Assembly: GCF_000769655.1 (NCBI RefSeq)
Contig: NZ_CP008887.1
Coordinates: forward strand, 1,240,001-1,304,000
Direction: 5' to 3'
From: Thermococcus eurythermalis
Lineage (GTDB): Archaea; Methanobacteriota_B; Thermococci; Thermococcales; Thermococcaceae
Length of the DNA stretch: 64,000 nt
Of this stretch, positions 29,201 through 33,683 are shown in pieces. Position 1 is the first letter of the stretch. Every line of letters starts with the position of its first letter. Both the position numbers and the translations under genes were made by a program. The notes below the pieces were generated by a model. It made no database searches. It saw nothing but the letters and a program-made list of their open reading frames with translations, and had not been told where the DNA came from.

Positions 29201-30856
29201 CTAAGATACTTGAATCAGTTTTCTATTTTCAACATCCACTGTGAAAACCTTGACCCGGTCTCTATATTTTGTCGAAGTCCACTTTATAAACGCATGCACT
29301 TCGTTCTTGAAGAGCAGGTAGGAAGAGGGAGGCAGTACTATCCACAACTCGGATTTGGTTGCCAGCCTGCTCTCAACGTCCTTTCTTAGTTTCAGGAGGG
29401 GAAGGGCTTCTCCGTAGAAGGTCTCGATTTCAATTGCAATGTCTTGAGGTTTGTTTTGGTTTCGGATTTTGACGTACACGTCTATCCTTATATCTCCCTC
29501 GGGATACTCGGTTTCTATGTCGTCAGGACTAACGCCGTAATCCTCCACCAACCGTTCGAACACAAAGGCCTTCAGGGCGTAATGAGTCAGGCTTTCCCCC
29601 GGGTTGCCTTCGATGTACAGGGCCGATGGAATGGCCTTGCCCTTTATGCGGATTGTTCTCGTGTAGCTCTCCACGAACTCACGGTATTTGCTTTCAAGAT
29701 ATGGGGCGAGATAATCAAACTCGATGTTTGCAACCTTATGCTCCTCATGGAACCCCCAGAAATTGTGTATGAGCCTGCATAAACTTTTGGGGGAGTTTAA
29801 CTTGATTCCTACCCACTCTTGAACTAGAGACACCCGAATGCTATTTGAGTTTGAAACGTGCGTCACTAACCCGAACACCTTCTCTTTCACCCAGCTGAGG
29901 AACTCCTTATCACCGTAAAACACCAAGAATCCAAAACTCTGGGAGAAAAGCTCCCTAACCTTTTCGGTCATTGCTTGTAGATGTTGTTTTCCCAGTTCTT
30001 CTTCCGGTTTCTTTCCTACTTCCCAATCAATGACAAAGATGGAGTTTCCTGCCCTGAGAGACTGCAACCTCTCCGGGTCTCCGGGCAACATAACGTGGTA
30101 CGCAGTTGGCAACCCACCGACCCTTACACGATACAGCTCTCTGAGGAGGCGCTTCAGGAATTCTATGTATCCAAACTCCTTTTCTTTGGGCTTTTTAGCG
30201 AGGATTATAACGGGCCCCTCTGGGAGGAACGACACCCCTAAGCCAAAGGCCTTTGAAAACACGTCCTCGGCAGGGAGCTCTATCTCCGGAACTTTTCCCC
30301 CGGACTTGGTGGCGGTGAGCAACTCAACTTCTGTGGTTATTGAGTAACCAACGTTGCCGGACGATTTCAGGAAGACCGGCGTTATTACCGGAATGGAAAA
30401 CGAACTCAGGTCTCTCCCCTGTGGGGTTCTAACATCTTCAGTGACGTTTAAGGTCACTGGGTTGGGCTCCTCAAAGTGGACCTCTGGAAGTTTTTTGGTG
30501 ATTGCGTCAAGTAGATGCACGGAGTGAGGGGTGAAAACTTCCGTTCTAACGTCTATGGCTCCAACTTTCTCAGCTTTAAGAAACACCAGCTTCTCAATTG
30601 GCCTGATTTTGGTGAGGTCAAACGGCTCTGGGGGTGATACGGTCTCCGTGATTCGGATGGTAACGTCAGCAGGCTTCTGAAACACCGGTATGAGCAGGGG
30701 GACTTTAATGGTTCGCTTTTTGATGGGGGTAGTTTTGGTGCCCTCTTCCTTTGATACCATTGCACTTGGAGTGGCCTCAGTAACGATGATTTCTTCCTCA
30801 GTCCACCATTTTTTCTTTGTTTCGACTTTAACTTTAGTCTTCGTTAGCTCTCCCAT
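29201..30856 (-). CDS. Repeat protein with C-terminal PD-(D/E)xK-like nuclease domain
   Basis: A 551-residue protein, last of the four-gene operon. After a basic start, residues about 50-185 hold four degenerate beta repeats of 30-40 residues (PVFQK...ITETVSPP; LVFLK...VRTEVFTP; VTLNVTEDVRTP; PVFLK...ITTEVELL). The middle (190-400) is unassigned. The C-terminus (about 420-510) has the restriction-endonuclease-like pattern: helix with E421, D459 in GDIRIDVYV, and E476/E478 in IAIEIETFYG. The usual Lys is Glu here. Its start overlaps the upstream gene by 13 bases. Confidence 0.7.
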   Translation of the reverse strand: MGELTKTKVKVETKKKWWTEEEIIVTEATPSAMVSKEEGTKTTPIKKRTIKVPLLIPVFQKPADVTIRITETVSPPEPFDLTKIRPIEKLVFLKAEKVGAIDVRTEVFTPHSVHLLDAITKKLPEVHFEEPNPVTLNVTEDVRTPQGRDLSSFSIPVITPVFLKSSGNVGYSITTEVELLTATKSGGKVPEIELPAEDVFSKAFGLGVSFLPEGPVIILAKKPKEKEFGYIEFLKRLLRELYRVRVGGLPTAYHVMLPGDPERLQSLRAGNSIFVIDWEVGKKPEEELGKQHLQAMTEKVRELFSQSFGFLVFYGDKEFLSWVKEKVFGLVTHVSNSNSIRVSLVQEWVGIKLNSPKSLCRLIHNFWGFHEEHKVANIEFDYLAPYLESKYREFVESYTRTIRIKGKAIPSALYIEGNPGESLTHYALKAFVFERLVEDYGVSPDDIETEYPEGDIRIDVYVKIRNQNKPQDIAIEIETFYGEALPLLKLRKDVESRLATKSELWIVLPPSSYLLFKNEVHAFIKWTSTKYRDRVKVFTVDVENRKLIQVS

Positions 30857-31986
30857 CCCATAATCACCTGGCAGTTGATTTTATTGTCCTGTCCCTCCAG
30901 GACTGCAAACCCGCAGAACGCAAGAGGGGCTATGAATGCTATGAACTCGGTATAGTTTACTCCATTTTGCGGTCCGGATTCGAACTTTAATTTGCCCCCA
31001 TTTATCGTGGCGTTTCTCTTATACACTCTGAACGGGTCAGGAACTCTGAGGGAGTTGAAGTCATCATTGTAGGAATAGCTGGAGGTTATTGCCCGGTACA
31101 CATTCTTCAGTTCGTCCAAGGGTATCGTATCCTTCAGCCTTTCCGAGTACACCTTCAGATACTTCTCAAACTCGTCCTCGACTCCGAAGAAGTCTCCAAG
31201 CTCCCAAATCTGGAAGAGCCTGTAGCAGTCGAGGATTACCTTGTAAATTCTGTGCCCGACGGTGCCCGGTTTTAGCCCGACGACCGCCCGCCTTTTCCTC
31301 TCCCGTTCCAATGGCAGGTCGGGTAAAATAACGTCCTCCAAAACGATGCCGTATTGACGTAGGAGCTCCTGAACGTCTTCAGTGAACAATTTGGAATAAC
31401 TCTTTTCCAGATAAAAGCGGGGTGTTGAGCAGATGGAGACTATAAAGCATGACATTGGGTTAAAGAGTGGCAGGAGCTCCTTTGCCGCCGAGAGGAGTTC
31501 GCCAACGACCTGCGGCCCGGTCATCGGGGACGACAATGAAATCTCACCCACCGTTGGTGGTTTCCTCCCAAGTTCATCAAAGATTTCCACGAGGTTCTCT
31601 CTCATCGAGCGAAGTAAATCCGTGAAATTCGTCCTAACAAGCTTTGGCTTGACCCCGGAGGACGCGCTCTCAAGGTCTATGCCCTCCTTGAGGTAGGAGA
31701 CTATCCTCTCCATATCCTCTCGGGTTATCCCGAATCCGAGAATCTCGGAGTAGAACCTGGCGAGGCCGTTTTTCGCTATGCCATCTTCGTTCAGACCCCC
31801 AAACAGAACCTTTTCCCAGATTTTGTTTTCTTTGAGGAGAGCATCAACGGTTCTGTCGCCTGCTTCCTCAAGCAGCCAGTCCCTCAGCCTGAGAACCCCC
31901 TCGATTTTCACGTAAAGGTGGGAGAGCTGGGCTATGTACTCTTCCCACGCCTTTTCATCATGGTAGGGTATCCTCTCTTCAATCAT
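30844..31986 (-). CDS. Unknown protein, third gene of the Ntn-hydrolase/nuclease operon
   Basis: A soluble 380-residue protein with no family I recognise. It is mainly helical up to about residue 320 (YIAQLSHLYVKIEGVLRLRDWLLEEAG; LYRLF-like stretches; KYLKVYSERLKDTIPLDELKNVYRAI). A short C-terminal beta-rich part follows with AFIAPLAFCGFAVLEGQ. No signal peptide is seen. GGAGGGG lies before the ATG. It overlaps the upstream gene by 8 bases and the downstream one by 13, so translation is coupled and a joint complex is plausible. Confidence 0.7.
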   Translation of the reverse strand: MIEERIPYHDEKAWEEYIAQLSHLYVKIEGVLRLRDWLLEEAGDRTVDALLKENKIWEKVLFGGLNEDGIAKNGLARFYSEILGFGITREDMERIVSYLKEGIDLESASSGVKPKLVRTNFTDLLRSMRENLVEIFDELGRKPPTVGEISLSSPMTGPQVVGELLSAAKELLPLFNPMSCFIVSICSTPRFYLEKSYSKLFTEDVQELLRQYGIVLEDVILPDLPLERERKRRAVVGLKPGTVGHRIYKVILDCYRLFQIWELGDFFGVEDEFEKYLKVYSERLKDTIPLDELKNVYRAITSSYSYNDDFNSLRVPDPFRVYKRNATINGGKLKFESGPQNGVNYTEFIAFIAPLAFCGFAVLEGQDNKINCQVIMGWES

Positions 31987-32884
31987 CGTATCCCCTCCAT
32001 GACAGTATCGTCCTAACCCTCTCTACGACTTCAGGCGGTACGTCCGAGATTATCCCCCTTATATTGACGGCGTTCTTCCAGATGTCGAGTGCGAAGGGAG
32101 GGACGATGTTTTTATCTGCAGATGCGATGAGACCAGCTTTGTATAGCTCTTCCCGTAGCCGCCATTTGTCTGTTTCTGGTATGTGTATTGTTCCCTGAGA
32201 AACGATATCACGTAGCGTATCAAGGACTCCCAAGTCAAATGAATAACCTTGGAATATTCTTGGGTATGCTGACAAAATAACGACAGTAAGTTTTGCGTCA
32301 GATGAAAGAACTCTGATATTCTCCATAATCTCCTTTTCAAAATATTCAACGACCTCTGGGGTATTCCCAAGGATGAACCCTGCCGCCTTTGAGAGTATCT
32401 TTGCTGGTTCAATGTAAACAGATTTATAACCAACTTCAAATTCAAGCGTGTCTCCTTGGTTTTCAACGTATTTCCGAATACCATCTCCAAGACTGTTAAC
32501 TGTGCTGTTGTAAATCTGCCTTGCAGTTATCTTCTCATCTATTGAACTTGGATTCTTAATAATGGTGTCAAGGGCACTCCGAGCACTTGCTATGATGTCA
32601 GATTCGTGAGATTTCACAGTCTGCTTGGTGATTGCTATGAGGGTTTTGTATTCAAGTATCCTGATGTTCCCGACCCCACAGTATTCCCGACGGTGGCATT
32701 CAACCTCAAGTATTTTTGGATAACTGTACAACTCTGGATGTGCAATCAACCAAACCGCCAATAGCTCCCGGTACCTTTTCTGCTCAACGAATTCCTTTGT
32801 GAGGAACTCACGAAAGATGTCCTCCAGCTTTTTCTCCACGGCATCCTTAACTCTGTCCCTTATTATCTCCCTCACGTCGCTCAT
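31979..32884 (-). CDS. Unknown protein, second gene of the Ntn-hydrolase/nuclease operon
   Basis: A soluble protein of about 301 residues with no recognised family. The N-terminal 70 residues are helical and charged (REIIRDRVKDAVEKKLEDIFREFLTKEF). A region with two Cys (ECHRREYCGVGNIRILEYKTL) follows, then an alpha/beta part (KLTVVILSAYPRIFQGYSFDLGVLDTLRDIV). ATG 32884 has GGAGG nine bases upstream; TTG 32893 is less likely. The reading frame overlaps the Ntn-hydrolase gene by 38 bases. Codon use is AT-richer than in the flanking housekeeping genes. Confidence 0.7.
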   Translation of the reverse strand: MSDVREIIRDRVKDAVEKKLEDIFREFLTKEFVEQKRYRELLAVWLIAHPELYSYPKILEVECHRREYCGVGNIRILEYKTLIAITKQTVKSHESDIIASARSALDTIIKNPSSIDEKITARQIYNSTVNSLGDGIRKYVENQGDTLEFEVGYKSVYIEPAKILSKAAGFILGNTPEVVEYFEKEIMENIRVLSSDAKLTVVILSAYPRIFQGYSFDLGVLDTLRDIVSQGTIHIPETDKWRLREELYKAGLIASADKNIVPPFALDIWKNAVNIRGIISDVPPEVVERVRTILSWRGYDD

Positions 32885-33683
32885 CTTCTCCAACCTCCGC
32901 CAGCGAGGTTAAGATGAGTTCCTCAACTTTATCCTCGCCAAGGACATCGCAGAGGAGCATGAGCTCCTGAATCAGCTCCTTCCGTTTTCTGACCTGCTCC
33001 TTGAACTCTCTCAGGGCCTCTTCGTTTATGGCGCCGAGGGCTACTTTTCCGTCTTCAACTCTCATGAGCCAGCTCTCGCCGACGAAGGGGCCGACTGAGG
33101 GGTCAATTTCGCTGACCATGTCCACTATGAACGTGGAAAGCAGGCCCCAGTTAAGTTCTACTCTCGGCGAGTAGCCAAGGAGTCTAAGGAGCAGAAGGCC
33201 GCCGGTTATAGAGCCCGAACCAATTATTGCGAACCCGGGAGTGTCGTGAACAGGCTCCGCGAGTCCCCTGCTGTCGAAGTGATATATCGAAGCCCTCCCA
33301 TTCGGGTCTACACTTGACAGAATCATGTTGAAGCTCACGTCAATTCCCATCTCCCTAAGCTCTCTGAACCTCTTAATCAGGGCTTTTTCCACCTCACCGA
33401 CAATCCACCGAAACTCCTCCTGAGTTGGCGTTGTGTTCTCGCCTTCAGTCTCTATGTATTTTTGGGTGACCGTATCAACAACGTGATACCCGTATTTGAC
33501 AATCGCGGCGTCTCCGGAACCGCCGGCTATCGCCACGGGGATGCCATTGACGAATACCGGGTGAATCTTCTTGGCCTCGTACGTTACAGGGCCGTACGTG
33601 ACTCTGGAGTCCGAGACCATCAAAACGGCATCGTGGTTTTTCTCCCTGTCCCAAATCCATTTCAGAGCCAAAACTAATGTCAT
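32847..33683 (-). CDS. Proteasome-beta-like Ntn hydrolase, first gene of the operon
   Basis: A 278-residue protein beginning MTLVLALKW. Removal of Met would expose a catalytic Thr as in proteasome beta subunits. Counting Thr as 1, the next landmarks follow in order: VSDSRVT (Asp24, matching Asp17), AKKI (Lys37/38, matching Lys33), then AIAGGSGDAAIV (the AG oxyanion loop). IIGSGSITGG resembles the S-G-D/S late motif. A helical extension of about 60 residues ends the protein. GTG 33692 would add three residues and bury the Thr. The Ntn fold is likely; the substrate is unknown. Confidence 0.72.
   Translation of the reverse strand: MTLVLALKWIWDREKNHDAVLMVSDSRVTYGPVTYEAKKIHPVFVNGIPVAIAGGSGDAAIVKYGYHVVDTVTQKYIETEGENTTPTQEEFRWIVGEVEKALIKRFRELREMGIDVSFNMILSSVDPNGRASIYHFDSRGLAEPVHDTPGFAIIGSGSITGGLLLLRLLGYSPRVELNWGLLSTFIVDMVSEIDPSVGPFVGESWLMRVEDGKVALGAINEEALREFKEQVRKRKELIQELMLLCDVLGEDKVEELILTSLAEVGEDERREGDNKGQS

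Follow-up and report, generated by a model that had tools for sequence, protein, structure and literature searches.

On the minus strand of the 64,000-nucleotide stretch of Thermococcus eurythermalis DNA analysed here (the window), the gene g1 opens a four-gene cassette of patchy distribution, which ends in g4 and is located in the window between aldo-keto reductase and aldehyde ferredoxin oxidoreductase genes. Residues of g1 are numbered with the threonine that follows the initiator methionine as 1, and the features referred to below are as follows.

g1: 32847..33683, minus strand; proteasome-beta-like Ntn hydrolase of 278 amino acids with a Met-Thr start
Thr1 codon of g1 (residue 2): 33678..33680, minus strand; putative nucleophile
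Asp24 codon of g1 (residue 25): 33609..33611, minus strand; equivalent of proteasome beta Asp17 by hhalign pairing
Lys38 codon of g1 (residue 39): 33567..33569, minus strand; equivalent of proteasome beta Lys33 by hhalign pairing, kept where Lys37 is replaced by Arg
C-terminal module of g1 (about residues 198-269): 32874..33089, minus strand; common to the C-terminus of a Thermococcales M28 peptidase
g2: 31979..32893, minus strand; 304 amino acids, overlapping the end of g1
g3: 30844..31986, minus strand; 380 amino acids, directly upstream of g4
g4: 29201..30856, minus strand; 551 amino acids, with a C-terminal PD-(D/E)xK-type nuclease domain (about 412-551)
Predicted PD-(D/E)xK nuclease domain of g4: 29204..29623, minus strand; residues E421, H425, K429, E450, D459, E476xE478 and K489

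An earlier note on this DNA had read an ATG-ACA start, giving Met-Thr, at the head of g1, and this start is indeed present on the minus strand, with the ATG at 33683, the stop at 32847 and a product that begins MTLVLALKW. The start call is supported by a GGTG-type ribosome-binding sequence found just ahead of the codon preceding Thr in G035, G057, G083 and G080. The residues listed in that note (D24, K37, K38, the loop now read as AGGSGD, and GSGS) were all recovered in proteasome order, as was a D-to-K spacing below that of proteasome beta, namely 14 residues from D24 to K38 instead of 16. Two of its readings had to be narrowed: the conserved lysine of the K37/38 pair is K38, since L195 and the frameshifted L197 copy have Arg in place of Lys37 and keep Lys38, which identifies Lys38 as the catalytic lysine; and the GSGS stretch, although present in the window protein, varies in its serine (GCGS in G080, GTG in L197, GKG in L198). 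The note had also made its case depend on homologues keeping the threonine after Met. Thr follows the start in nine of nine distinct N-termini, and in all start-bearing homologues, in keeping with a nucleophile that would be ready once Met is removed, with no propeptide. Wherever a g1 sequence extends over them, Thr1, Asp24 and Lys38 are invariant, across Thermococcales, Bathyarchaeota, Methanodesulfokora and Desulfurococcales.

By sequence comparison, g1 is assigned as encoding a proteasome-family Ntn hydrolase. The PF00227 profile matches the window protein with an E-value of 6e-5 (23.2 bits, a thin margin over the curated cut-off of 22.4) and all five distinct homologues scanned, the best at 1.3e-6; in a search of 21 genomes, the copy from G080 does not reach this cut-off. 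Alignment of the g1 profile with that of archaeal beta subunits gave an hhalign E-value of 4.5e-6 and a score of 45.6, set against a maximum of 26.0 among 200 column shuffles and 16.2 for the reversed profile. In this alignment, Asp24 and Lys38 of g1 fall opposite Asp17 and Lys33 of beta, and its AGG and GSG loops opposite those that carry Gly47 and Ser129. An AlphaFold prediction based on five close sequences is of poor quality, with a pLDDT of 42; the order of strands and helices in this low-confidence model appears to fit proteasome subunits, and its Foldseek matches, to be read as those of a weak model, are to proteasome subunits alone (E 2e-5 to 1e-3, TM-scores 0.3-0.5). Centrins, which a comparison with PDB sequence profiles returned via the acidic helical tail, with the proteasome matching weakly, were rejected as relatives and attributed to composition.

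The C-terminal extension that the earlier note had found unusual proved to be homologous to the tail of an M28 peptidase (hhalign E 7.5e-9, score 52.4, with a maximum of 19.6 among 200 shuffles and 13.0 for the reversed profile); the peptidase carrying this tail also has a PA domain. A combined profile of the g1 and M28 tails is found in 86 of the 115 genomes of the phylum, and beyond the g1 copies nearly all matches, judged by frame size, are located in frames of about 560-650 amino acids, the size of the M28 protein. The weak model would place helices at 221-248 and 250-267 in this part of g1. Because the tail is common to two unrelated peptidases, it suggests a shared docking partner or a role in assembly. 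One Thermococcales M28 peptidase with a PA domain and the C-terminal module of g1 is seen at L011:91-1776.

Close homologues of g1 are found in five other Thermococcales, and distant ones in a Thermoproteota MAG (G299 = L194), two Bathyarchaeota MAGs (L195 and L196), Methanodesulfokora washburnensis (L197) and a Desulfurococcales MAG (L198). The distant group was reached by a contig profile search that included the G299 sequence, the five close sequences alone returning none of it; in the phylum of G150, the search covered 10 genomes. The L197 copy is frameshifted and the L198 copy contains one in-frame stop, so these two may be decaying or mis-sequenced. Within its phylum g1 is patchy, being present in 6 of 115 genomes, and among the cassette genes it is the best conserved, with 56% identity to its G299 counterpart from another phylum and a dN/dS of about 0.1 between the window and G035. 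Partial matches to residues 17-64 in other archaea, checked in L141 and L142, are canonical beta subunits. No homologue was found in the phage and plasmid collections or in the viral contigs searched, and hence no viral origin is seen.

The view in the earlier note that the operon partners are unlike those of known groups is borne out, as g1 stands in a cassette with g2, g3 and the predicted nuclease g4. Judging from the gene arrangement, g1 to g4 should form a single transcript, since all of them overlap end to start. Neither g2, which is seen only in Thermococcales cassettes and is missing from that of G080, nor g3 gave a significant family match. No Pfam match was obtained for g4; its C-terminal domain, modelled at a pLDDT of about 85, is predicted to be a PD-(D/E)xK nuclease, with a motif that is near-invariant in 12 sequences (alignment A3), and the viral Foldseek matches of the modelled domain are to endonuclease-like proteins and mismatch endonucleases (best E 9e-4). 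The modelled middle alpha/beta domain (193-400) is similar to AF2093 (E 9e-4) and less so to RecA-type folds, and residues 1-192, which are of very low model confidence, are probably unstructured. The general plan of g4, a Rossmann-like domain followed by a PD-(D/E)xK-type nuclease domain, is that of the Can2/Card1-type CRISPR ancillary nucleases, entries of which appear low in the Foldseek list of the g4 model (E about 0.06), but there is nothing in g4 to indicate a CARF domain or cyclic-nucleotide binding. Short proline-containing, strand-like segments, which are repeat-like in appearance and differ in number between genomes, make up the N-terminal part of g4 (window 30281-30856; alignment A3).

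The association of g1 with the nuclease is regular: the g4 gene or a fragment of it adjoins g1 in eight of eight loci from Thermococcales, Thermoproteota and Desulfurococcales. In six Thermococcales genomes g1, g3 and g4 are contiguous, at different chromosomal sites, while in G299 g1 is convergent with g3-g4 and in L198 a g4 fragment lies behind it. When 21 genomes, mostly g3-g4 carriers, were searched with PF00227, the only non-canonical matches at E<0.01 were g1 genes adjoining g3-g4 (G083, G080, G299). The nuclease gene itself occurs in 32 of 396 related archaeal genomes, from 12 genera, and g3-g4 pairs are commoner without g1 than with it, which indicates that g1 is dispensable for the g3-g4 core. 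The site that holds the full cassette in G083 has a g4 remnant in G061 and G080, g4 is broken in G024, and g1 is present as broken pieces in G332, which indicates that the cassette comes and goes. In G024 (L022:4824-6486), where g4 is in pieces, g1 hardly differs from that of the window; the break in g4 may be recent, or g1 may persist after the nuclease is lost.

Taken as it stands, this looks like a mobile defence cassette. For instance, g1 adjoins Argonaute (6e-87) and the type I restriction subunit HsdR (1e-108) in L195, Csm3/RAMP genes of type III CRISPR in L196, and HEPN and nucleotidyltransferase genes in G299; the G080 cassette is located beside AbiEi, AbiEii and a resolvase, and in G270 an AAA+ ATPase and type I restriction genes lie next to a g3-g4 pair, all of these being observations on single loci. 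In four Thermococcus-type genomes, including that of the window, the cassette lies between ordinary metabolic genes and not in a defence island, and neither g1 to g4 nor their relatives gave a significant PADLOC model match. The Bathyarchaeota copies of g1 have as partner a protein of 413-415 amino acids with a D...ECTG...K motif (L195:7609-8856, L196:657-1898), for which no Pfam or PADLOC match was obtained; homology of the 415-residue form to the g4 nuclease was not supported (E 0.036, motif resemblance only). The same applies to a 153-residue protein with a D...ExK motif just upstream of the frameshifted g1 of Methanodesulfokora (L197:7453-7914; E 0.32, motif resemblance only).

It is from the family assignment, the catalytic residues, the gene association and the tail that we infer protease activity, a defence role and a substrate for g1. 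With a likelihood that we place only slightly short of even, g1 would supply the protease of a nuclease-based conflict system in archaea, processing a specific protein, and g4 would be the DNA-cutting effector of this system. Once Met is removed, Thr1 would be exposed and would form, together with Asp24 and Lys38, a proteasome-type active site that needs no propeptide and that would carry out Thr1-dependent amide-bond chemistry. Made together with g2, g3 and g4 from the overlapping genes, g1 could then process or remove a specific protein, in the simplest case a cassette partner such as the long N-terminal part of g4, and the cleavage could switch the g4 nuclease on or off, with the C-terminal module as a docking or assembly piece. 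The choice of substrate is a guess, because g3-g4 pairs without g1 have this low-confidence and probably unstructured region of g4 as well. A more specific form of the proposal, which we hold only tentatively, is that a proteasome-family threonine protease serves as the processing or regulatory arm of a nuclease-based antiviral or anti-plasmid system in archaea and docks via a tail that it has in common with an unrelated metallopeptidase. We know of no defence system described with a proteasome-type protease, and none was found in the literature searched, a set outside which most subscription papers and preprints fall. Archaeal conflict systems would, if the proposal is true, gain an Ntn protease among their components.

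Among the other roles that g1 might have, that of a self-compartmentalising, general degradative protease, forming a ring like HslV or Anbu with g2 or g3 as adaptors, is unlikely. The proteasome-family core, with strands and helix pairs that appear in the right order in the model, would suit such a role. HslV has a Thr after Met and an AGGTAD-like glycine loop, and g1 is HslV-like in its Thr after Met and its AGG glycine loop; the match to E. coli HslV is weak (E 9e-4 over 45 columns), and g1, unlike HslV, is archaeal, ends in the C-terminal module and has no HslU-like gene beside it. Anbu is bacterial, with ATP-grasp, alpha-E and transglutaminase proteins as operon partners, whereas g1 is archaeal and g2 to g4 match none of these partner families. 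The C-terminal helices of g1 do recall those that stabilise Anbu double rings (PMC8665760). However, no AAA+ unfoldase gene was recognised beside g1 in the loci examined, its distribution is patchy, and a full 20S proteasome is already present in the genomes checked. A dedicated processing protease is preferred over a general degradative machine, as no unfoldase gene lies alongside and the occurrence of g1 tracks that of the nuclease.

Distinctly unlikely is a site-specific transpeptidase or protein ligase of the connectase kind, which would join or trim a cassette partner. Connectase (PF09894, MJ0548_N) is, like g1, a stand-alone archaeal proteasome homologue with its nucleophile right after Met (L199-L212; PMC8665760), but no sequence relation between the two is detectable: PF09894 is absent from the hmmscan matches of g1 at E-values up to 1, and hhalign gave 0.02 over 24 columns. 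Moreover, the nucleophile of g1 is Thr and not Ser, and the two-helix S3/S4 insertion that marks connectase is not seen in g1, whose weak model appears to have H1 and H2 and to leave no room for it.

That g1 acts as an alternative beta subunit in the 20S proteasome, changing its specificity, is very improbable. It has the Thr nucleophile, Asp and Lys positions, Gly loop and order of secondary structure of archaeal beta (PF00227), is nearer to beta (E 4.5e-6) than to alpha (0.0033) in profile comparison, and shares its 2.1-Mb Thermococcales genome with two ordinary beta genes and one ordinary alpha gene. Set against this, g1 differs from archaeal beta in its lack of a propeptide, its shorter D-K spacing and its extra C-terminal module of 70 residues; in the tree, the g1 sequences fall outside the 20S beta clade and form a single group (100/100 support) separate from both alpha and beta, on a very long branch of 2.7 changes per column; and g1 is located with a nuclease cassette and not next to proteasome genes, whereas beta has a housekeeping context and separate canonical alpha and beta genes are present in the genomes checked. 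A catalytically idle scaffold or sensor that has kept only the fold, to which the varying Ser129-equivalent might point, is just as improbable given that Thr1, Asp24 and Lys38 are kept wherever readable and that conservation within the cassette is highest in g1, with the identity and dN/dS given above.

The earlier note had proposed a new branch of the family, and the separation from alpha and beta in the tree and from connectase in profile alignment (E 0.02, 24 columns) upholds the branch, but not its being wholly new: Fuchs, Alva and Lupas described 22 new families of proteasome homologues in 2021, with no genomic context suggesting function (PMC8665760), one of which fits the distribution of g1. 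This is the ACC family, given there as 17 archaeal sequences from Euryarchaeota, Crenarchaeota and other archaea with a predicted coiled-coil C-terminus (PMC8665760). By description only, it resembles g1 in being restricted to archaea, scattered, poor in sequences and equipped with a helical C-terminal extension (PMC8665760), and g1 may be ACC, to judge by distribution and C-terminus. The fold family of g1 is known; what is new lies in the cassette, in its defence-type neighbourhoods and in the tail common to g1 and the M28 peptidase. One stand-alone proteasome homologue now has a conserved partner set, a predicted nuclease and defence-type neighbourhoods in several phyla, which makes its function directly testable and provides the first testable context for one of many proteasome cousins without assigned function; a small, conserved operon from hyperthermophiles is, in addition, convenient for biochemistry.

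Some further observations concern g3-g4 pairs away from g1. The host genome contains a second, distant pair without g1 (G000:C1:1671752-1675018, L058:3720-7064), and similar pairs are found at different sites in other Thermococcales and also in other archaeal families. In G270 (L108:4388-8587), the AAA+ ATPase, which has a relation to IetA models, and the type I restriction genes come after the g3-g4-like pair. DUF257 proteins are encoded near two such pairs (L059:2891-4090, L060:12937-13512), and AF2093 is the protein that the middle domain of g4 resembles.
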